DNA of 64,000 nucleotides from Filimonas lacunae (GTDB taxonomy: Bacteria; Bacteroidota; Bacteroidia; Chitinophagales; Chitinophagaceae). How positions within the stretch are numbered: position 1 is the first letter of the stretch; each line of letters begins with the position of its first letter. Positions 30,018 through 61,900 of this stretch are shown here, piece by piece. The position numbers and the translations under genes were made by a program. The notes beneath the pieces were generated by a model. The model made no database searches. It was not told the DNA's origin and worked only from the letters and a program-made list of their open reading frames with translations. Location of the stretch: contig NZ_AP017422.1 in NCBI RefSeq assembly GCF_002355595.1, forward strand, positions 4,216,001 through 4,280,000, given 5' to 3'.

Positions 30018-30728
30018 TTATCCAGCGTGTATATTACCATGAGGCATTTGTGCAGTTCGCTTAAAGAAATAGATATTCCATATAATCAGTGTGTAGCCAT
30101 ATACCGCATCTTCTATGGGCACCGTAAGTATGCGGATATTGAAAAAAGTAGCTGGATTATAATTTACAATGGGCTCTTCCAAACCGGTGCCTGTTAACAC
30201 CCCGTTTACGATAAAAAAGGGAATCAATAAAAGGGTGTATACGCAGGATATTTCAACAATCCAGCTTACCCTTGCTATAAACTGCAGGTAAAACAGGCTG
30301 GCAGCAGCTACCAGGAAGGTAACAAAAGGATATATTTTACCTGTACAGCTGGCAGTTATCACCAGGCATGCAAATATCCCGATGAGGGTGAAATATTGCT
30401 GAAACCTGGCCGTATACTTAGGCAACCGCCAGTGCTTTTGAATAACAAACCAGGTGAACAGGCACGAAAAAGGAATACATATAAAAAAAAGCCATTCTTC
30501 TATGGGCAACCCCAGCAAACGAATGCCTAAAAGATAACGATCATTGAACCACCATACGCCCGCTTTGGTAAACCAGGCATCCCATATAATAAAGGGAATA
30601 GCTACTATAATACTTGACTTAATATAGGGAAGAAAATAATGATTAAAATGTATTTTAGGATGAAAAGAAAAAATAAAGCAAAAGATTACTGTTAAAAAAT
30701 TAACCAGCAGGTACGTATAATGCGCCAT
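30018..30728 (-). CDS. crtY: Lycopene cyclase (fused CrtYc/CrtYd membrane type)
   Basis: 236 residues, mostly hydrophobic with about six to seven predicted membrane helices. Two related halves carry the family motifs: TKAGVWWFNDRYLLGIRLLG followed by LPIEEWLFF in the first half, and PIEDAVYGYTLIIWNIYFF in the second. This heterodimer-derived membrane cyclase converts lycopene to beta-carotene. It is the last gene of the carotenoid operon, 3 bp after crtZ, and its stop lies about 10 bp from the tRNA-Tyr terminator. The gene symbol is by function; the family is often named crtYcd. Confidence 0.9.
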   Translation of the reverse strand: MAHYTYLLVNFLTVIFCFIFSFHPKIHFNHYFLPYIKSSIIVAIPFIIWDAWFTKAGVWWFNDRYLLGIRLLGLPIEEWLFFICIPFSCLFTWFVIQKHWRLPKYTARFQQYFTLIGIFACLVITASCTGKIYPFVTFLVAAASLFYLQFIARVSWIVEISCVYTLLLIPFFIVNGVLTGTGLEEPIVNYNPATFFNIRILTVPIEDAVYGYTLIIWNIYFFKRTAQMPHGNIHAG

Positions 30729-30731
30729 TCT

Positions 30732-31184
30732 TTATGCCTTTTTAAAATACATTTTGAAATATTTATAAGGCACCCACAGGAAGCCGAAACACTCGCCCTC
30801 TTCTTTACCCAGGTGCTTGTGATGCTGTTTGTGTGCCCTTCTCAATGCTAACAAATAAGGATTTTGGGTATTGCGTAAAAAGGGAATGCGCTGATGAATG
30901 AATATGTCATGCACAAAAAAATAAGCCATACCATAAAGTGTTACACCCAAACCAATGTAAAACCAGCCATTAAAGCCATGTGTTTTACCATAATACATCA
31001 TAACAATGGCAGGTATGGCAAATATTATAAAAAAGTAATCGTTACGCTCCACTTTACTGTCGTTGCTTTTATCGTGATGATCTTTATGTAACGACCATAA
31101 AAAGCCATGCATCACATATCTGTGTATTACCCAGGTAAGTGCCTCCATGGAGAAAAAGGTTATTATGATAATAAGTATATTCAT
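30732..31184 (-). CDS. crtZ: Beta-carotene 3-hydroxylase (fatty acid hydroxylase superfamily)
   Basis: 150 residues, membrane protein with the full histidine-cluster set of diiron hydroxylases: HRYVMH (His21, His26), HKDHH (33, 36, 37), HDIFIH (92, 97) and HKQHH (118, 121, 122). CrtZ hydroxylates the beta-ionone rings of beta-carotene to give cryptoxanthin and zeaxanthin. It sits between a gene of unknown function and the cyclase gene with only a few bases between, clearly in one operon. Confidence 0.93.
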   Translation of the reverse strand: MNILIIIITFFSMEALTWVIHRYVMHGFLWSLHKDHHDKSNDSKVERNDYFFIIFAIPAIVMMYYGKTHGFNGWFYIGLGVTLYGMAYFFVHDIFIHQRIPFLRNTQNPYLLALRRAHKQHHKHLGKEEGECFGFLWVPYKYFKMYFKKA

Positions 31185-31191
31185 ATTGCTG

Positions 31192-31731
31192 CTATTTTAC
31201 CGTAGTTAGGGGAACCGGCTTCACAGATTGCTGTTGGCTAAGCCTGGACAGCTCTGCTTCGGTTAACAAATCTGTTTTTTGAAAGAATTGCAGAATTAAT
31301 AGTCGCAGACTACTGTTGGGAATACTTGCATAATGGGAGAGTATAAAATTTTTATCGGCATTAATTTCTGAATGATAACGGAGCATTTTAGGAACGTTGT
31401 ATTGAATAGACAAACGGACAAAGTGTATTTCTACCTCATTGCCACCTGTTGCCACCGCCTTTTCAATATTCCTTTTTCCTTTTTTAAAAGAACTCAGTTT
31501 TTCTAACGGATTCCAGGTATGGTTGGCCCAAATGGCCTGAAAAGCACCCAGGTAAGCAAGCGACACGGGTTGCTGGGTCGTTGACTGTAACATGACTATC
31601 ATTCTTTTGCATACCTGCTTATCTGTAACAGATAAAGCATACTGACTCCTTATTTCATCCAACGGCGGATTACTGCGAAAGGCAGATAAGCTATGCAATA
31701 ATAAAATGAGGAATACCGGTTTCATATCCAT
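31192..31731 (-). CDS. Unknown protein encoded inside the carotenoid operon
   Basis: 179 residues with a hydrophobic N-terminus (MDMKPVFLILLLHSLSAF), likely a signal peptide or anchor. No recognised domain; the body is helical with FQAIWANHTWNPLEKLSSFKKGKR near residue 65. The ATG overlaps the last 10 bases of crtB (a second ATG at 31725 would shorten the overlap) and the stop is 7 bp before crtZ, so it is translationally embedded in the pathway. I believe similar proteins occur in other Bacteroidota carotenoid clusters, but I cannot name a function. A periplasmic or membrane accessory role for carotenoid enzymes is only a guess. Confidence 0.75.
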   Translation of the reverse strand: MDMKPVFLILLLHSLSAFRSNPPLDEIRSQYALSVTDKQVCKRMIVMLQSTTQQPVSLAYLGAFQAIWANHTWNPLEKLSSFKKGKRNIEKAVATGGNEVEIHFVRLSIQYNVPKMLRYHSEINADKNFILSHYASIPNSSLRLLILQFFQKTDLLTEAELSRLSQQQSVKPVPLTTVK

Positions 31732-32558
31732 GCCATTTTAAACTGCAAATAGCTGCTCATCATCAACGAAATTTTTCTTCCGTTATTAATACGGATGCGC
31801 TGGTGAATGATGGCTTTTGCAGGAGTTTTCTGTATTTTCCTGAAAAGAGAGAGATAGTAGGAATAAGCAAGATACACGCCAAAACGGGACGACCGGGGTA
31901 ATAGCCGAATGCCAGCCAAAGCTTCGGAAAACTCCTGGGCGATCTCTTTTTCAATGGCAGCCTTTGCATCCCTGTTAAAATGCTGCATGTTTACATTGGG
32001 AAAATAGGTTCTTCCTAACACCTGGTAATCATCTTTCAAGTCGCGAAGGAAGTTCACCTTCTGAAAAGCTGAACCCAGCTTCATAGCAAAAGGCTTCAGT
32101 CGCAGATACTCTGCTTTGTTGCCATACACAAATACCTGCAGGCACATCAACCCTACCACTTCGGCCGACCCAAGTATATATTGATTATACAATTCGGGAT
32201 TGTATTCCATCTTTTGCAAATCCATTTCCATACTTTTCAAAAACAAATCTATCAGCTCCCATTCAATCTGGTATTGATGCACCGTTTGCTGAAAAGCATG
32301 CAGGATGGGATTAATAGAAATTTTTTCTTCCAAAGCCTGAACGGTTTGCATACGAAGCCGATTCATCAGGGCCGTTTTATCGTAAGCATGAAAACTATCT
32401 ACTATTTCATCGGCCAAACGAACATAACCGTAAATGGCGTAAATGGCCGGCCTTATTTCTCTACTTAATGCCAGTATGCCCAACGAAAAGCTGGTACTGT
32501 ACTTTTTAGTGGTTTCTTTGCTGATACAAAAAGACAATTCATCAAAAAGCTGCTTCAT
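31722..32558 (-). CDS. crtB: Phytoene synthase
   Basis: 278 residues. The two Asp-rich prenyl-diphosphate binding motifs of the squalene/phytoene synthase family are present: DEIVDSFH near residue 50 and DLKDDYQVLGRTYFP near 195-210. The enzyme condenses two GGPP to phytoene in the cytosol. It follows crtI by 4 bp and overlaps the next gene by 10 bp. No GGPP synthase is encoded in the window, so that activity must come from elsewhere. Confidence 0.95.
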   Translation of the reverse strand: MKQLFDELSFCISKETTKKYSTSFSLGILALSREIRPAIYAIYGYVRLADEIVDSFHAYDKTALMNRLRMQTVQALEEKISINPILHAFQQTVHQYQIEWELIDLFLKSMEMDLQKMEYNPELYNQYILGSAEVVGLMCLQVFVYGNKAEYLRLKPFAMKLGSAFQKVNFLRDLKDDYQVLGRTYFPNVNMQHFNRDAKAAIEKEIAQEFSEALAGIRLLPRSSRFGVYLAYSYYLSLFRKIQKTPAKAIIHQRIRINNGRKISLMMSSYLQFKMAWI

Positions 32559-32562
32559 GCGG

Positions 32563-34038
32563 TTAAATCTTTAGTTTATTGATGGCTGTTGCTGCAATTT
32601 TTCCAGAGATAAGGGAAGGCGGCACACCCGGACCGGGAACAGTTAATTGGCCGGTGTAATACAAGTTTTTAATTTTTTTATTACGGATGGCTGGTTTAAG
32701 CACCGCCGTTTGCCGTAAGGTATTTGCCAGCCCATAGGCATTACCCTTATAGGCATTGTAATCATGTGTAAAATCATAAATGCAATAACTTTTTTTATAA
32801 TCAATCTTCTGCAACAAATCCCTTGCCCCGGTATGCTTTTCAATGCGTTGCAGCATTTGTAAAAAATACTTTTCCCTGATGGCTTCCCTGTCCTCAATAC
32901 CGGTTGCTATGGGCATAAGCAAAAACAGGTTTTCGTGGTTGGCGGGCGCTACCATCTTATCTGTTTTAGAAGGACAGCACACATAAAAAAGCGGTTGCGT
33001 AGGCCATTTTTTATCCTTGTATATTTCATTCGCATGCAGCTGCAGGTCGTTTTCAAAAAACAAGGTATGGTGTGTAAGGCCAGGAACCCTCTCCTTTACC
33101 CCTACATAATAAATAAGGCAGGAAGGTGCAAAGGTTTTCTTTTCCCAATATGCTTCGTCATAATTCCGGTAGGGCTTTTCCAGCAATTGCTGCTCGGTAT
33201 GATGGTAGTCGGATGAGGCAATAATAGCATCAAAAGGAATTTCACGGCTATTGACCGTTACCGATACCGCCCGATTATTTTGCACATTCACCTTTTCTAC
33301 CGTAGCATTTACGTGAAAGGTAACACCTTGTTGCCGGGCAATAGCCGCCATGGCATCTATTATTTTGATGAATCCACCCAATGGATACCAGGTGCCTAAT
33401 TTCAACCCTCCATAGTTCATCAGGCTATACAGCGCGGGTATATCTTCGGGCATAGCCCCCAGAAATAACACAGGAAACTCCATCAATGCAATCAGCTTCG
33501 GTTCGCTGAAAAAGCGCCTTACATGCTTACGAAAGCTAGTAAGCAAGTCCAGCTTAAGCGCACTTCTGGCAATTTTTAACGATACAAATTCAAACCAGGA
33601 ATGACAGGGTTTATTTACAAAATCGCGCATGCCTACTTCATACTTGTATTGCGCTTCTTTCATAAACCTGTCCAGCTGCAAAGCGGCACCAGGTTCAATA
33701 GATTCAAACAACAGCTGTAAATCTTCGTAGCGCTCCGGAATGGCCATAGCTTCGCCATCAAACACCATTTCAAACTGGGGATTCAGTGCTACCAACTGGT
33801 AATAGCTGGCAGCACTGGTATTAAAATCTGTAAAAAAGTTTTCAATAATATCCGGCATCCAATACCAGCTGGGCCCCATATCAAACGTATACCCGTTATC
33901 TGTTGTAAACTGCCTGGCCCTTCCTCCTAACGTACTGTTTTTTTCAAAAACATGTACTTCATTACCGGCCTGCGCTGCGTACGCAGCAGCGGCAATGCCA
34001 GAAAAGCCAGAACCAATAACCGCTATCTTTTTTCTCAT
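32563..34038 (-). CDS. crtI: Phytoene desaturase (CrtI type)
   Basis: 491 residues. The N-terminal FAD-binding motif (VIGSGFSGIAAAAYAAQAG, Gly9-Gly14) is followed by FEKNSTLGGRARQF; the C-terminal CrtI signature reads YYTGQLTVPGPGVPPSLISG. CrtI-type enzymes convert phytoene to lycopene. It is 6 bp downstream of the MarR gene and 4 bp before crtB, at the head of the biosynthetic genes. Confidence 0.95.
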   Translation of the reverse strand: MRKKIAVIGSGFSGIAAAAYAAQAGNEVHVFEKNSTLGGRARQFTTDNGYTFDMGPSWYWMPDIIENFFTDFNTSAASYYQLVALNPQFEMVFDGEAMAIPERYEDLQLLFESIEPGAALQLDRFMKEAQYKYEVGMRDFVNKPCHSWFEFVSLKIARSALKLDLLTSFRKHVRRFFSEPKLIALMEFPVLFLGAMPEDIPALYSLMNYGGLKLGTWYPLGGFIKIIDAMAAIARQQGVTFHVNATVEKVNVQNNRAVSVTVNSREIPFDAIIASSDYHHTEQQLLEKPYRNYDEAYWEKKTFAPSCLIYYVGVKERVPGLTHHTLFFENDLQLHANEIYKDKKWPTQPLFYVCCPSKTDKMVAPANHENLFLLMPIATGIEDREAIREKYFLQMLQRIEKHTGARDLLQKIDYKKSYCIYDFTHDYNAYKGNAYGLANTLRQTAVLKPAIRNKKIKNLYYTGQLTVPGPGVPPSLISGKIAATAINKLKI

Positions 34039-34044
34039 GGTAGC

Positions 34045-34716
34045 TTAATTTTGAAGAAAGGCATGTTGTGCTGCTACCGTATCTAATAGTGTTTCGGCAG
34101 GAAGGTTCTGCTGATAAATAGGTTGGTGAAATGCTTCCAGCTTACCCAGCAGGCGTATCAACTCCATTTTTTCAGCGTGGCTGAGGTCGCCCGCTACTAT
34201 GCGGGAAGCCTTTTTTATTTTTTCCATCTGCATAGCTAACACCATTTTCCCCTTTTCATTGATAGAAATAACCTTGCTTCGCTTGTCTGTTGCAGAATCC
34301 ACCTGTTCAATCCAGTTTTTCTCCAGCAAGCGGTTGATAATCTGCATCCCCACAGGCTTTTCCTGGATATTCTTTTTAATAAGTTGCATTTTACTCATAG
34401 CTCCGAATGCATTCAGGTTAATAAGATAGATGAACTCTTCCTGCGTAGAAAATTCAGAATCTGCAATGGCCGAACGGGAATAAGTTCTCGCATACCGGTT
34501 TAAGTGCACTATCAAGGTATTAATGATGCTTTCTGCACTACGACCTCTTTCTTTCCCCTCCCAATTGGGTTCGGAAACTGGCTTACTGCCAGGAAAGTGA
34601 TTGCTGACCAGCCAGGATACCCATCCTTCTATATCACCAGAATGCTGCCCATGAATATTCTGCAATTCAAAGGCTTCTATCATAGAAATGACTTGCTTAA
34701 GGAGATTATAGTTCAC
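34045..34716 (-). CDS. MarR family transcriptional regulator of the carotenoid operon
   Basis: About 223 residues from a GTG start at 34716; the ATG at 34683 is an alternative that gives 212 residues. The winged helix-turn-helix is visible in NIQEKPVGMQIINRLLEKNWIEQV followed by the wing DSATDKRSKVISINEKG, the MarR signature. It is the first gene of the carotenoid operon, 6 bp before crtI, so it probably autoregulates the operon. A 26-bp dyad starts 25 bp upstream. It is longer than a typical MarR protein (about 140-160 residues) because of an N-terminal extension of about 70 residues. Confidence 0.9.
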   Translation of the reverse strand: MNYNLLKQVISMIEAFELQNIHGQHSGDIEGWVSWLVSNHFPGSKPVSEPNWEGKERGRSAESIINTLIVHLNRYARTYSRSAIADSEFSTQEEFIYLINLNAFGAMSKMQLIKKNIQEKPVGMQIINRLLEKNWIEQVDSATDKRSKVISINEKGKMVLAMQMEKIKKASRIVAGDLSHAEKMELIRLLGKLEAFHQPIYQQNLPAETLLDTVAAQHAFLQN

Positions 34717-34741
34717 TTATAGACATCTTTAGAGAATAAAA

Positions 34742-34767
34742 GTACATATTTACACTAAATATAGTAC
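34742..34767. promoter_or_regulatory. 26-bp dyad, candidate MarR operator of the carotenoid operon
   Basis: GTAC-ATATTT-ACACT-AAATAT-A-GTAC: two inverted arms with one unpaired base, starting 25 bp upstream of the marR start. The size and near-perfect symmetry suit a MarR dimer. Weak minus-strand promoter-like words overlap it (TATATTTA, and TTTG upstream). Inference from position and symmetry. Confidence 0.5.
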
Positions 34768-34927
34768 AATTATATACCAAATCAGCTAAAATAATGAGCC
34801 TATCAGCATCTTTCTGGAAGACCTGAAGGTCATCTCAGGCATTCATGGCAGTATGGATTCGCGCGGGCATCTTCACTTTTAAAATGCCACTTTGAGCGCC
34901 TGGAATTTGTTGAGCCGGTAGCATAGT

Positions 34928-35599
34928 TGCCGTATAACACGGAAGATGTGCAATACCCTAAAATAAAAATGCCGCATACCACTACACATCTTTTGTATGA
35001 TACGTAACATGGTACGCATGACGCGGTACTTTGTACCCATCATTATGCACAGGTGCAGCACCATTTTACACCCGTACAATATTACCCGTACAAACTCCCG
35101 TATGACCGGATACTTTGTACGCGCCATAATGCAGATGTGCAGCACCGCATTGCACATCTGACGTACCACGCGTAACATCCTCCGCATGATACGTAACATT
35201 GCACGCACGACGCGGTGCTTTGTACCCATCACTATGTAAAGGTGCAGCATCATTTTACACCTGTACAATATTACCCGTACAAAGTATCCGGTCATCCGGC
35301 ACATTGTACGCACCACGCGTAACTTTGTACACGCAATTATGCAAAGGTGCATAATCATATTACACCCGTACAATTTCTTCCGTACAAACCTCCCGGTCAT
35401 CCGTAACATTGTACGCTCGACGCGGAACATTGTACGCACAATTATGCAAAGGTGCCGGACCATACTGCACAAGTACATTATTCTCCGTACAAACTTCCCG
35501 GCCATAATGCACAGGTACACCGGCATATTGCACAACTACAATTTCTTCCGTATAAACTTCCACATCCCCCGGCACTTGTACACACACCATTATAAATTA
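34928..35599. repeat. Tandem array of diverged 21-bp units in exact phase
   Basis: Cut every 21 bp from 34991, the sequence gives 29 related units ending at 35599, with three more degenerate units back to 34928. Not one indel is needed. Most units fall into five types that recur in order, giving 105-bp higher-order blocks (for example 35222-35326, 35327-35431). Typical units start with GTACGC, TGCAGC, TACAAT, TCCCGT or GTACCC and carry a TRCA-like word near positions 15-18, so adjacent units share a quasi-palindromic GYAC-N3-GTRC junction. Because 21 is a multiple of 3, long frames stay open by chance on both strands; the longest (34879-35535, minus, TTG start) reads as heptads rich in Met, Arg, Cys and Val. 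It is not a CRISPR: there are no spacers. Confidence 0.93.
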
Positions 35600-35802: not shown

Positions 35803-36372
35803 ATGAAAGAGCTGATTGCCTATTTATTGCAATTTGGGCACCTGAACCAGCAGCAGTGCGACCTGATACTTTCCAGGGCGCATTTGAAAGCGGTGGGCAG
35901 GGGCTGCTATTTTTCAGAAGCCGGTAAGGTGGCCCGGCAAATAGGTTATGTTACCAACGGAGTATTCCGCGTTTGTTATTATGATAAAGCGGGGGAAAGC
36001 TTTACACGGTATTTTGTGTATGAAAACAGGTTTGTGGTAGATATCAACAGCTTTCGCGACGATATGCCTTCTGCTGAATATATTGAAGCGATAACCGATT
36101 GTGAAGTTGTGGCCTTTTCCAGGGAAGACTTTACCGAACTCTCTAATACCATTCCCGGCTGGCGCGACATTTTTTACAAAATCACTTCCTATGTGCTGGA
36201 AAATAAGTTAAGAGCTACCAGTAACATGCTGGTACAAGATGCGCAAACACGTTACCTGCATTTTCTGGAATACTATCCCGGCCTGGCCAATCGTGTTCCG
36301 CTTACCATGCTGGCGTCTTATTTAGGTATTACCCCTTCTTCGCTTAGCCGCATCCGGAAAAGCATTCTGTAA
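35803..36372 (+). CDS. Crp/Fnr family transcriptional regulator
   Basis: 189 residues. An N-terminal cyclic-nucleotide-binding-like beta roll (about 20-115; GKVARQIGYVTNGVFRVCYYD) is followed by a helical linker and a C-terminal helix-turn-helix ending in LASYLGITPSSLSRIRKSI. No Cys cluster of an FNR iron-sulfur sensor is present, so the ligand is unknown. This short subtype is common in Bacteroidota. It is transcribed away from the 21-bp array, which lies about 200 bp upstream. Confidence 0.9.
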   Translation: MKELIAYLLQFGHLNQQQCDLILSRAHLKAVGRGCYFSEAGKVARQIGYVTNGVFRVCYYDKAGESFTRYFVYENRFVVDINSFRDDMPSAEYIEAITDCEVVAFSREDFTELSNTIPGWRDIFYKITSYVLENKLRATSNMLVQDAQTRYLHFLEYYPGLANRVPLTMLASYLGITPSSLSRIRKSIL

Positions 36373-55964: not shown

Positions 55965-58900
55965 CTATCGGAGCAATGTAACAGAACCTTGCCTGTGGAA
56001 AGCCTTACCGTTGTTGTCAACAGCTTCAGCAGTCCATACATAAGTGGCCAGCGGTTGCAGTTCGCCATTTACGCGACCATCCCATCCCTGTGCAGGATCT
56101 GATGATTCAAATACCTTTTTACCCCAGCGGTTAAACACCCGGAAATAACGCAATTTGATATTACCTCTCAGATTAGGCAATAACAGATCGTTTTGGCCAT
56201 CGCCGTTAGGAGTAAACACATTAGGCACTAATACATCATTGGAAATAAACACATTCACTAACAAGGTATCTGCTGTAACACAACCAGAAGGGAAACTCAT
56301 TTGAATGGTGTATTGCTGAGTTTCATTTAAGGTAGTTACCGGATTGTAAATAGCCGTGTTAGATAAGCCTGTACCTGGCAACCAGGTATAGCTGGCATTA
56401 GTTAAAGAACGTGCGGCCAACTGTGTAGGCAGGGCAGCGGAAGTATTTACCGTTGCCAAACGCACACTGGCTACAGGTGCTTCTACTGCTATGCTTTTAG
56501 TAACCGTAGCTACCAATGCAGGACATGCTGTCGGCGTTACTGTTAAAGCCGTAGTAAAACTACCTGCCGCAGCATAAGTAAACTGTGTATTAGCAGCTGT
56601 GCTGGTTTGTCCATCGCCACTATTCCAGGTGTAGGCTACCGTTCCGCTGGTGCTCACATCCGATGCATTGGTAAAGGCAACCGGTGTACCTGCACACCAG
56701 GTATCAAAGCTGAACGCTGGTGAGGGAGCCAGTAAACGGGTAAGAGTGATGCTATTGTTTGTGTTATTTACGCAACCATAAGCATCTGTAACTTTTGCGG
56801 CATAGGCACCTGTTTTGGCTGCATCCAGCTGGGCAGCAGACTGACCGGTGATTACTTCGCTATCCAGGTACCATTCGTAAGTGTAGTTACCTGAAGCGGT
56901 TAATGCCAGCGTATCATTGACACCACACAATATCGTACCTTCTGTTGCACTGATAGTGCTTACAGGCAGTGCGCGAACAGTTAAGGTACCATCGGAATAA
57001 GAAATGGCATAGTTGCTACCTGCTGCACCAGATGCCGCAATGTTGTAGCCACCTGCTACCGACTGTGCATTGGCAGCGCTGGCAGCCGTTGCTTCTGATG
57101 TAAGTACGGCTTGGGTTTCATTATTCACAAAACCATTGTAGCTAATGCGGAACACCGGGTTGGCAATACCATAACAACGGGCGGTATCGTTGGCAGTTAC
57201 CATCAAAGCCGCTTTATTTACGGTAAGCTTACCATTGGTGTAGCTGATAGTATAGTTATCAGCGCTTACACCGGAAGGTACAATTGTGTAATCACCGCTG
57301 TTTACAGCTCCCTGTGCCGAGCCGCTGTAGATAACAGTACCGGTTAACACAGTAGCATCTTCATTATTGACAAAACCGGTATATATCAATCCATTACCAT
57401 TATTAAATGCAAGGCCATCGTAGGTTTTTACCGTATCACGGGCAGTTACTTCTAATGCGGCTTTATTAATAGTAAGCGTTCCATTCGCATAGGTAATGCT
57501 GTAATTATCAGCTACTAGTCCATCCGGAACAATCGTATATGTATTTACGTTGGTAGCCCCTTGTGAGGTACCAGTGTACGTAACTGCGCCGGTTAAAGCA
57601 GCAGTAGAGTCTTCATTGTTTACAAAACCACTATAGCTAACACCGTTGCCATTGCTGAATGCCAGGCCATCGTATACTTTAGTGCTGTCTTTGGCTGTAA
57701 TAGTTAAAGCAGCCTTGCCCACGGTTAAAGTACCATTCGCATAAGTGATAGCATAGTTGGCGGCAAATAATCCACCGGGTATGATATCGTAGCTGTTTAC
57801 ATTAATGGCTCCCTGCGAGTTACCGGTATAAGATACGGCACCGGTCAAAGCAGCAGTGGAATCTTCACTATGTACAAAACCACTGTAGGCAAGGCCGTTG
57901 CCACCAGCAAACGCATTACCATCGTATACTTTGGCAGAATCGGTTGCGGTGATGGTTAAAGCAGCTTTATCAATGGTTAAAGTATCGTTGACATAGCTGA
58001 TATCGTAGTTACCCGAAGTATAGCCACCCGGTATTATTACATATTTACCGGCATTTACCGCATTTTGAGAAGTACCAGAGTAACTTAAAGTTCCTCCTAA
58101 TACAGATGCATTATCACCTGTGGCAAAACCGGCATAGTTCACACCATTACCGCCGGCAAAGGCAGTACCATCATACGTTTTAGTAGAATCTTTAGCAGTA
58201 ACGGTTAAGGCAGCTTTATTAATATCCAGGCTACCGTTATGGTAAGTGATGCTATAGTTGGCAGCAGCTAAACCAGCAGGAATAATGGTATAATCACCGC
58301 TATTCACTGCACCTTGTGAAGTGCCACTGTAGGTTACTGCGCCGGTTAAAGCGGCAGTAGAATCTTCATTATTTACAAAACCACTGTAGATAACGCCATT
58401 ACCGTTGCTGAAAGCAACCCCATCATACGTTTTTACCGAGTCACGTGCAGTTACCTCTAATACAGCTTTATTGATAGCAAGTGTTCCATTCGCGAAAGTG
58501 ATGCTGTAGTTGTTAGCCACCAGTCCACCAGGAATAATGGTGTACGTGTTTACGTTGGTAGCCCCTTGAGAGGTACCAGCGTAAGTAACTGCGCCGGTTA
58601 AAGCAGCAGTAGAGTCTTCATTGTTTACAAAACCACTATAGCTAACACCGTTGCCATTGCTAAAGGCCAATCCATTGTACACTTTAGTGCTGTCTTTGGC
58701 TGTAATAGTTAAAGCGGCTTTGCCCACGGTTAAAGTACCTTTCGCATAAGTGATAGCATAGTTGACGGCAGATAATCCACCGGGTATGATATCGTAGCTG
58801 TTTACGTTAATGGCTCCCTGCGAGTTACCAGTGTAAGATACGGCACCGGTTAAAGCAGCAGTGGAATCTTCGCTATGCACAAAACCACTGTAGGCCAGGC

Positions 58901-61900
58901 CGTTGCCACCAGCAAACGCATTACCATCGTATACTTTGGCAGAATCGGTTGCGGTGATGGTTAAAGCAGCTTCATCAATGGTTAAAGTATCGTTGACATA
59001 GCTGATATCGTAGTTACCCGAAGTATAGCCACCCGGTGTAATGACATATTTTCCAGCATTTACGGCATTTTGAGAAGTACCGGAATAACTTAAAGTGCCC
59101 CCTAATACAGAGGCATTATCGCCTGTGGCAAAACCGGTATAGTTTACTCCATTACCACCGGTAAAGGCTGTGCCATCATATGTTTTAGTAGAATCTTTAG
59201 CAGTAACGGTTAATCCTGCTTTGTTAATATCCAGGCTGCCACTATGATAAGTGATGCTATAGTTGGCGGCAGTTAAACCAGCAGGGATAATGGTATAATT
59301 ACCACTATTCACAGCACCTTGTGAAGTACCACTGTAGGTTACTGCACCGGCTAAAGCGGCAGTGGAATCTTCATTATTTACAAAACCACTGTAGGTAACG
59401 CCATTACCATTGCTAAAGGCAGCGCCATTATACGTTTTTACCGAATCACGGGCGGTAACGTCCAATGGTGCCTTGGTAATAGAAAGCGCTCCATTAGCAA
59501 AGGTGATGGTATAGTTATTGGCCACCAATCCACCAGGAATAATGGTATATGTGTTTACGTTTTTAGACCCTTGTGAAGTACCAGCGTAAGTAATCGCACC
59601 GGTTAAGGCAGCAGTAGAATCTTCATTATTTACAAAACCACTGTAGCTAACACCATTCCCATTGCTAAAGGCCAGGCCATCATACACTTTAGTGCTGTCT
59701 TTGGCTGTAACCGTTAAAGCGGCTTTGCCTACTGTTAAAGTTCCTTTTGCATAAGTAATAGCGTAGTTAGCAGCAGATAAGCCACCAGGTACAATATCGT
59801 AGCTGTTAACCTGGATAGCTCCCTGGGAGTTACCGGTATAGGCTACTGTTCCGGTTAAGGCAGCTGTAGAATCTTCGCTATGTACAAAACCACTGTAAGC
59901 AAGACCATTACCACCGGTAAAGGTTCTACCATCATACACCTTGGTTGAATCGGCTGCAGTGATGGTTAATGCGGCTTTATTAATGGTTAAAGTGTCATTT
60001 CCATAGCTAATATCGTAATTGCCGGAAGTATAGCCACCCGGTGTTATTACATATTTTCCAGCATTTACTGCATTTTGCGAAGTACCGGTATAACTTAAAG
60101 CACCGCCCAACACAGAAGCATTATCGCCTGTGGCAAAACCGGTATAGTTTACACCATTACCACCAGTAAAGGCAGTGCCATCATATGTTTTAGTAGAATC
60201 TTTAGCAGAAACGGTTAACGCGGCTTTATTAATGTCCAGACTACCGTTATGGTAAGTGATGCTATAGTTGGCAGCAGTTAAACCAGCAGGGATAATAGTA
60301 TAATCACCGCTATTCACTGCGCCTTGTGAAGTGCCACTGTAGGTTACTGCGCCGGTTAAAGCAGCAGCAGAATCTTCATTATTTACAAAACCGAGATACG
60401 CCAAACCGTTACCACCACTGAAGGCTGTTCCATCATACACTTTAGTAGTGTCGCTTGCAGTGATTGTTAAGGCTACTTTTTTAATAGTTAAAGCGCCTGG
60501 CTGGTAAATAAGGGAGTAATTATCTGCAGACAATCCATTAGGTGAAATAATATAGGTATTGGCATTTACCGCGCCTTGTGCAGAACCAGCATAGCTAAGC
60601 GTACCTGTTAAAGCCTGTGCAGAATCTTCATTGTTTACAAAGCCAGTGTAAGAAACGCCATTACCACCATAAAACGCGGCACCGTCATAAAATCGGGTGC
60701 TGTCTTTTCCTTTGATGAGTAAAGTAGCTTTAGCTATAGTAAGGGTAAAAGCGGCAGACGCATCAGCATAAGTGGCATTACCCGCCTGTGCGGCAGTTAT
60801 TTGCACACTACCGGCCTTTTTGATGGTCACCTTCCATTTATTGCCGTCAGCAGCATCCTGGTAAGCTTCAGCTATGGAGTTATCAGCAGAAACATAACTT
60901 ACCGTTAAACCGGAAGTAGCGGCAAAGTTGGGTGCAAAATCAGCAGCGCCATATGTTTTGGAAATATTGCTGGCATTAATGGACTGCGCCGTTTGCTGCA
61001 ATTCATAAGCCCCGATATCAATAGTGCCGCCATTAACATAGTTGGATACACGTGCACTACCTGCCAGATCGGTACTGGAAGCACTTAATCCCGGATATAA
61101 GGCATTGCTACCCGCATTTTTTAATATGCTTCCGCTTTGCAGTGTATAATTACCATCGACATTTGCTCCATTATTATAGTCAACCGGAAGGGTAAAAGAA
61201 GGATCATCACTACCCGATAAATTGTGCGCATTGGCGTCTGCCGCCACGCCCTGCACCAGGCTGTATTTAATGGTAGCACTGCCAATATTGGCAATCCCTG
61301 ACTGATTGTTATAGATGACGCTGTTATTGATAGTAAGGCCTACACTACTATTATAGATAGCTCCACCCGAAGCACACGAATTACCGACAATAGTAGTGTT
61401 CGTAAACTGGCCAATATCATTGGTTATATAAATAGCGCCACCGTTGCTTCCTGCATAATTGCCGGACATTAATACATTGTTAAATACGTTAGTACCGGTA
61501 CTATACTGCACATAAATACCACCACCACTATTTCCTCCTGTATTGCCTTTTATCTGTACGCCATTGGCAGTAATAGGGCCACCGGTTTGTGAAAAAATAC
61601 CACCACCATAGCTGTATGCACTATTATTCTGAATCAATGAATTGGTTATTGTAAGCGGGCTTCCCTGATTAAGATAAATACCCGCTCCAAAGCTTGCAGC
61701 ACATTGCTGAATGGTACAATTGGTTAAAGTAACTGTGTCATTACCGTATACTCCTATTCCTCCGCCAAATTGACCGGCTGTATTACTAGCGATGTACGAA
61801 TTTTCAAAGGTTACATTGCTACTGAACAGAGCTCCTACGCCCCCACCATAACTACTTGCGTAGTTGTTGGCAACCACCATGTTGCTAAACTTAACCGAAG

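Follow-up and report, generated by a model that had tools for sequence, protein, structure and literature searches.

What keeps a diverged tandem repeat in an exact register of 21 bp? The question is raised by an intergenic array of about 650 bases that lies in the 64,000-nucleotide stretch of Filimonas lacunae DNA analysed here (the window) and is one of many arrays with a 21-base rhythm scattered over this Bacteroidota chromosome. Twenty-one base pairs correspond to two helical turns of B-DNA and also to seven codons. To our knowledge satellite-like arrays are uncommon in bacteria, and no title on 21-bp intergenic arrays in Chitinophagaceae was found in the literature searched (subscription journals and preprints lay outside its scope).

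The self-match of positions 34970-35599 at a shift of 21 bp is 0.432, whereas windows of the same size in other parts of the 64 kb give 0.269 ± 0.022. Outside the array the self-match is at most 0.378 at any shift from 10 to 210 (repeat region at ~56.9-60 kb excluded). Within the array a shift of 105 bp gives a self-match of 0.577, and Tandem Repeats Finder (TRF) describes 35195-35505 as 3.0 copies of 105 bp with 77% match and 0% indel. The period-21 peak foreseen by the original prediction is thus present, together with an indel-free TRF block. Units were then scored one by one on a leave-one-out basis. Scores of the 28 units between 34991 and 35578 range from 3.0 to 16.9, while in the rest of the window 99% of positions score below 2.6 (maximum 14.4). 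The original prediction had described 29 strict units from 34991 onwards, preceded by three degenerate units reaching back to 34928. A 21-bp phase without indel is borne out for 34928-35578 by self-match and unit scores, and 28 of the 29 strict units stand; the last one (35579-35599) fits only after a 1-bp slip at 35583. On the left side, the units at 34928 (score 14.1) and 34970 (12.7) are in phase, but the unit at 34949 hardly fits (0.4). Higher-order blocks of 105 bp had also been proposed. They are supported by TRF and by the self-match at that shift, but the strongest block repeat is one of nine units (189 bp), with 75 of 84 bases identical between 35012-35095 and 35201-35284; further offsets occur at 5, 10, 14 and 19 units. 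CRISPR arrays also consist of regular repeats with partial palindromes. Unlike them, the window array contains neither spacers nor a constant repeat.

Table 1. Coordinates of the window array, its internal repeats and the adjoining genes (window positions).
Feature	Position	Strand	Evidence
21-bp phase-locked, dyad-symmetric array, 31 in-register units (34949 very degenerate)	34928..35578		Unit scores, self-match, dyad symmetry
Terminal degenerate unit, 1 bp out of register	35579..35599		Phase score -14; 1-bp slip at 35583
84-bp block (4 units), copy 1, best higher-order repeat	35012..35095		18+18+19+20 of 21 bases identical to the copy 189 bp downstream
84-bp block, copy 2, best higher-order repeat	35201..35284		Unit comparison with copy 1
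In-register inverted copy inside the array, left arm	35087..35139		BLAST against own genome: minus-strand match, 53 bp, 79% identity
In-register inverted copy inside the array, right arm	35258..35310		Same 53-bp minus-strand BLAST match
MarR-type winged-helix regulator gene, reading away from the array; judged outside the element	34045..34716	-	Pfam MarR_2, E 2.5e-5, 24.8 bits (curated cut-off 27 not reached)
Crp/Fnr-type cyclic-nucleotide-binding regulator gene, reading away from the array; judged outside the element	35803..36372	+	Pfam cNMP_binding, E 3.5e-8

The array sits in a 1,086-bp gap between the divergent MarR-type and Crp/Fnr-type genes. A 22-bp repeat of 1.9 copies at 34741-34782, immediately upstream of where the MarR gene starts, is distinct from the array and is a possible MarR operator. 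Beside the MarR gene, the open reading frames at 30018-34038 resemble, by eye, carotenoid biosynthesis genes, presumably for a cyclase, a hydroxylase, a phytoene synthase and a desaturase. Further along the window, a 252-bp tandem repeat of 9.7 copies (57559-59993) lies within an open frame of more than 1000 codons, which looks like the coding sequence of a repeat-domain protein.

Two features of the array had gone unseen in the original prediction, its membership in a dispersed set and its dyad symmetry. BLAST of the window array against 59 genomes (its own and those of relatives) revealed a second 21-bp array in its own genome (G000:C1:147.97-148.46 kb), with a 126-bp higher-order repeat. 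The same search gave no second array in any relative; the matches in two other genomes were 24 bp long and contained no repeat. No match to the window array was present in the plasmid and phage collections, and a pattern scan of the IMG/VR viral contigs with one F. zeae unit returned 0 matches. More arrays were reached by a plain-motif search and in fetched stretches. The density was estimated from a motif-blind sample of the F. lacunae genome (G000) comprising 27 loci and 540 kb of 7.8 Mb, four of the loci adjoining known arrays. Arrays were taken as intergenic when at most 30% of their length overlapped open frames of at least 240 codons. Seven clear arrays were found in the sample (L065, L066, L073, L077, L079 and two in L084), or eight with the marginal L078. 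This corresponds to ~13 arrays per Mb (95% interval 5-27), that is ~100 per genome (41-209) or, at ~480 bp each, ~0.6% of the genome. Period-21 signals that fell within long open frames probably reflect coding sequence and were excluded (L050, L064, L066 at 1.8 kb, L068, L083, L088, L054 and the window at 58-60 kb). Weak signals were excluded too, namely those in L065 (13.4 kb), L087, L100, L053, L145 and L147 (G001), and L146 and L153 (F. zeae). At L079:4476-4637, outside the L079 array proper, there are matches of 23-37 bp to L073 and L097 units, and TRF finds no repeat there.

The distribution of the arrays is restricted. In F. zeae, 400 kb of motif-blind sequence contained three arrays at threshold (L154, L096 and L151); the overlap filter removed a further array, L097, which carries a 315-codon open frame. 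Targeted F. zeae stretches yielded L106, L107, L108, L141, L144 and L146. Three F. zeae arrays (L096, L151 and L157) are weaker and are counted only where stated. The third congener, G001, showed no array at threshold in 600 kb, an outcome with a chance of 0.0004 at the G000 density, so the arrays are dispensable within the genus. A 24-bp tandem array in G001 (L094:17930-18220) is covered by a 212-codon open frame. Among 641 kb from 19 other members of the family or order, a single array was found, L170 of genome G027, part of whose sequence is masked by N. Counting L170 itself, the motif of this array is present at four places on three G027 contigs, and it is absent from 194 other genomes of the family at E 1e-6.

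The period of these arrays is sharply defined. When 30 periods (10-39) were scanned, 15 of the 16 strongest signals were at 21 bp, some of them within genes. Phase and dyad signals occurred together in 84 windows at 21 bp, of 20104 overlapping windows per period (motif-selected stretches included). The corresponding number is 0 at 17, 19, 20, 22, 23, 25 and 27 bp, and 4, 4 and 3 at 18, 24 and 30 bp. A looser threshold raised the count to 136 windows at 21 bp and to 22-30 windows at 18, 24, 27 and 30 bp, again with motif-selected stretches included; at multiples of three other than 21 the signal comes largely from genes. Outside long open frames, periods of 14, 15, 16, 18, 24, 27 and 28 bp gave one or two matches each, mostly from the same arrays picked up at a different period, and there was nothing at 17, 19, 20, 22, 23, 25 and 26 bp. 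With the same intergenic filter, 2.18 Mb including the 540 kb of motif-blind G000 sequence contained 0 arrays at 19, 20, 22 or 23 bp. One 22-bp signal in a targeted G001 stretch (L145, 14.36 kb) proved to be a 33/66-bp repeat.

Phase is also retained along each array. Periodic alignment of 22 arrays (10.3 kb), in which slips of up to 4 bp were allowed, revealed 14 slips among ~3,970 departures from the unit consensus. Thirteen of them are of 1 bp and one is of 2 bp, and 11 of the 22 arrays were aligned without any slip. The array limits in this count were set by eye, and a larger slip at an edge would be trimmed away. Higher-order repeats across the arrays measure 42, 84, 105, 126 and 189 bp. 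The proposal that strict phase reflects a constraint on spacing is therefore supported: arrays of unrelated sequence share the period, with only 14 slips in the 22.

Dyad symmetry was assessed by comparing the phase profile of each array with its own reverse complement, phase-permuted versions serving as the null. Thirteen of the 21 arrays tested, a set without L170, are dyad-symmetric at p<0.05 and ten at p<0.001. The window array (34970-35599) has a dyad z of 5.8, which 0 of 2000 permutations reached. At the unit level the symmetry is insignificant in the remaining eight arrays (L073, both L084 arrays, L078, L096, L144, L146 and L151). A dyad on a 21-bp period entails a second dyad 10.5 bp away and hence two per unit, one per helical turn, so that both strands look alike and equivalent sites fall on one face of the helix. 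A weak core, RRAT-N-ATYY, centred on the base-centred dyad, is common to 11 arrays taken as non-redundant. Its information sum is 1.53, compared with 0.71 ± 0.17 for permutations, 0 of 3000 of which reach it, and the four innermost positions carry 0.19-0.41 bit. The W/S composition over the harmonics of 21 bp has no special 10.5-bp component, and plain A-tract bending is thus no common feature.

The dyads of the window array are TGYAC-NN-GTRCA-like and resemble the site of a dimeric protein. Together with the position of the array between two divergent regulator genes, this would agree with the original prediction's suggestion of an operator or decoy array for the MarR or Crp/Fnr regulator. 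However, arrays with a similar dyad (L007 and L045) adjoin unrelated genes. The MarR gene, moreover, has no match at E 1e-10 in the two Filimonas congeners, one of which is F. zeae with its many arrays. We therefore abandoned the operator suggestion as very improbable. Iteron, centromere-like and operator arrays likewise consist of direct repeats about two helical turns apart that are bound on one DNA face. As a rule they occupy a single locus, are sequence-specific and lie close to the gene for the protein that binds them, whereas no such gene was recognised here.

The arrays share their period and, for the most part, nothing that can be aligned. In an all-against-all BLAST of 17 arrays with their flanks, 18 of 136 pairs matched at E 0.01. 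Fourteen of these fall within three groups (window/L007/L045; L059/L077; L073/L097/L106/L107/L108) and the remaining four involve flanking DNA. Most arrays are mutually unalignable yet have the same period. Some are clearly related within a genome: L059 and L077 hold homologous arrays (78% over 583 bp), and one unit type recurs at four F. zeae loci. A further F. lacunae locus (G000:C1:6605139-6605457) has 68% identity to an L084 array and is known from the BLAST match only. Comparison of the flanks in the same BLAST revealed no leader or tail common to the loci. The exceptions are an edge common to L059 and L077, a short left edge of L106 and L108, and the orthologous flank of L073 and L106, a relative of whose gene lies beside L078.

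Orthologous loci were compared between the two array-bearing species. At L073 and L106 the arrays still align. The flanks of L007 align with F. zeae at 68-78% identity, and the same gap in F. zeae holds a 21-bp array, L144. The two arrays align with a score of 24 (maximum of 60 shuffles, 22), but we read no homology into this value because the unrelated control pair L007 and L146 does as well (score 32, shuffle maximum 31). At a second locus, L065 and L146 give scores of 25 and, on the other strand, 26, with shuffle maxima of 28 and 35, that is no alignment. On the evidence of these alignments, position is kept while sequence is replaced at two loci (L007/L144 and L065/L146) in two Filimonas species. 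In all, three of the six G000 arrays that were compared have an array at the same position in F. zeae. The remaining three are absent there or undecided: nothing was flagged next to the F. zeae counterpart of the gene that neighbours L066, and the search for synteny in relatives was negative for L059 and the window locus. In G001, the gap corresponding to L007/L144 has no 21-bp signal and contains an 11-bp tandem repeat of 10.4 copies (L145:8611-8724). At the second locus the alignable flanks are ~230 bp apart in G001.

These data bear on the main rival to a functional element, a selfish or neutral satellite in which an ancestral 21-bp array spread and diverged without function. Slippage, unequal recombination and fold-back template switching would copy whole units in both orientations, and since only in-phase variants would homogenise, the 21-bp period and the dyad would be by-products. 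Lineage-specific families at several loci per genome (the four in F. zeae, L059/L077, the second L084-like locus and the four in G027) are what this account expects. The in-register inverted copy within the window array, the turnover visible in higher-order repeats of 42, 84, 105, 126 and 189 bp and a congener (G001) that seems array-free fit it as well. However, unit length should drift in a neutral repeat, and yet intergenic arrays of 19, 20, 22 or 23 bp are missing from the 2.18 Mb. Position was also kept in two species after sequence replacement at two loci. A satellite held in register by homogenisation is thus a real possibility, to which we give appreciable weight without finding it probable.

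In another reading, transcripts or extruded strands would form long stem-loops of the kind predicted for BrickBuilt, acting on mRNA stability or supercoiling as structured RNA or cruciforms. On both strands the window array folds better than its dinucleotide shuffles (z of -6.7 and -9.2, from 20 shuffles per strand) and better than arrays with shuffled unit order, with z about -5 and 0 of 40 reorderings equalling it. L065 is likewise order-dependent, and L045 gives 0 of 40 on the plus strand and 1 of 40 on the minus strand. In the window, pairs 11-20 bases apart are complementary at a frequency of 0.474, compared with 0.406 expected (293 pairs). However, any dyad-symmetric repeat should fold well. 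Unit order has no clear effect in 11 of the 14 arrays (L073 and L084 are marginal on one strand), and the real order of L097 folds worse than 40 of 40 reorderings on both strands. Covariation about each array's own dyad, pooled over 20 arrays, shows no excess: 1228 complementary pairs were observed against 1292 expected among 3001 pairs at 3-10 bases, and 1607 against 1597.5 among 3676 pairs at 11-20 bases (z -2.6 and +0.3). A strand bias in G+T, as G-U pairing would produce, is inconsistent over 23 arrays; L096, L141, L170 and, on its minus strand, the window array are biased, whereas most arrays are not.

At the gathering score, Rfam matched only rRNA and tRNA, outside the arrays, in eight sources (a set that does not cover L059, L079 or most of the F. 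zeae arrays). The single Rfam match to the window array has E 0.29 and 21.9 bits, against a gathering score of 140. MAFFT alignments of overlapping four-unit stretches were gapped and unfit for a covariance model. The lack of a preferred gene orientation around the arrays also speaks against an RNA. Overall, the folding and pairing data favour a double-stranded, strand-symmetric element over hairpins in general, although single arrays may form hairpins. We regard structured RNA or cruciforms as an unlikely basis for the arrays.

A period of seven codons calls for a further comparison, with a gene for a heptapeptide repeat or its decayed remains. The window contains a 218-codon open frame on the minus strand that ends before the right end of the array, and 8 of 17 arrays have a stop-free frame. 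Stops are fewer than in column shuffles in L059, L066 and L084 (p 0.01-0.02; window p 0.07), and this depletion in the three arrays, which hints at a coding past, is the best evidence for one. However, 9 of the 17 arrays have stops in all six frames, the open frame of the window array has no Pfam match, and both strands are alike through the dyad symmetry. Slips in the 22 arrays are of 1 bp, once of 2 bp, and never of 3 bp. The original prediction that the array is apparently non-coding is upheld: a decayed ordinary gene was not seen, with the all-frame stops and the empty Pfam search on one side, yet a window frame open over 218 codons on the other. A coding origin is in our estimate the least credible of the readings considered.

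The best explanation, which we put forward tentatively and at somewhat less than even confidence, is that the arrays are dispersed, lineage-restricted, intergenic, minisatellite-like DNA elements, strand-symmetric and maintained in a two-turn geometry, and that they most likely act as nucleoprotein scaffolds, the binding itself being inferred. The property conserved would be geometry, namely exact 21-bp units with dyad symmetry in most tested cases. A putative homodimeric DNA-binding protein would be seated on successive dyads and would polymerise or bridge along the array, giving a scaffold for chromosome architecture or of an insulator-like kind. The arrays would grow and be homogenised by whole units through slippage and unequal recombination, and units off the helical register would be lost by selection. 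Judged by crude ORF calls, the genes flanking 14 arrays are convergent in 4 cases, divergent in 3 and tandem in 7, without preference, as fits a strand-symmetric DNA element. The absence of a pooled pairing excess at the dyads is likewise expected of protein half-sites and not of hairpins.

Several observations count against the scaffold. The unit-level dyad is not significant in 8 of 21 arrays, including both unalignable F. zeae orthologues (L144 and L146). Sequences diverge so far between arrays that a single sequence-specific protein could recognise them all only if its specificity were very loose; the core they share is weak, and the W/S composition lacks a special 10.5-bp component. Unit order affects folding in 3 of 14 arrays, which local protein sites do not require. 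The stop depletion in L059, L066 and L084, and weakly in the window array, hints at open frames, and the absence of arrays from 600 kb of G001 marks the element as dispensable. A nucleoprotein site, one of the roles initially proposed, stays a candidate, and a structured RNA is the weaker one. Geometry, and not sequence, may be what matters in these arrays. A broader formulation, which we consider doubtful, would make them a chromosome-wide class of elements defined by helical geometry and two-fold symmetry, with about a hundred strand-symmetric two-turn arrays per genome that keep their positions while their letters are replaced and on which a chromosome-organising protein would land and then polymerise or bridge.

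Perhaps ~100 non-coding arrays with one period, often dyad-symmetric but differing in sequence, would amount to a natural experiment on which kinds of DNA geometry a cell is able to read when the sequence is not fixed. Since arrays are found in G000 and F. zeae and seemingly not in a congener, their effect on chromosome structure is open to comparison and to deletion of single arrays.

The nearest described element is BrickBuilt of Porphyromonas gingivalis, a minisatellite/MITE that forms 23-nt spacer-less intergenic tandem arrays at 19 loci (PMC4596501). A leader and/or tail bearing small terminal inverted repeats accompanies 16 of the 19 copies, and mismatches and indels within an element amount to 0-11% and 0-6% (PMC4596501). 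Both are spacer-less intergenic tandem repeats of about two helical turns at many loci in Bacteroidota, with imperfect units, dyad symmetry, predicted long stem-loops and no Rfam match (PMC4596501). However, the BrickBuilt copies have one 23-nt repeat in common and mostly a leader or tail, whereas the Filimonas arrays are exactly 21 bp, mostly unrelated in sequence and without a general leader or tail; their units are far more diverged and nearly indel-free. The Filimonas arrays are therefore another bacterial intergenic minisatellite and not members of BrickBuilt. REP/BIME elements also comprise many intergenic palindromic units per genome that are sometimes clustered (PMC3733652); the Filimonas units differ from them in that they abut with an exact period and no spacers. 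The GTAG or CGTC tag that ends each REP palindrome was counted in 13 arrays on both strands and does not recur unit by unit, save for GTAG in L073. The window has 2 GTAG and 4 CGTC in 32 units; GTAG reaches 14 in 17 units in L073 and otherwise at most 7 in 24-27 units, and CGTC reaches 6 in 13 units (L079). Y1_Tnp, the RAYT-type transposase domain, has one match in each of three Filimonas genomes, including G001, where no array was found. A Y1 transposase is doubtful as the driver of the arrays, being present in genomes with and without arrays found.

Some arrays have distinctive neighbours. L073:10316-10936 and the marginal L078:15428-16060 sit upstream of genes whose products resemble each other (206-210 aa) and have no clear Pfam family. 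The array at L065:6600-7130 is located upstream of a complete rRNA operon, and the orthologous gap in F. zeae also holds an array.
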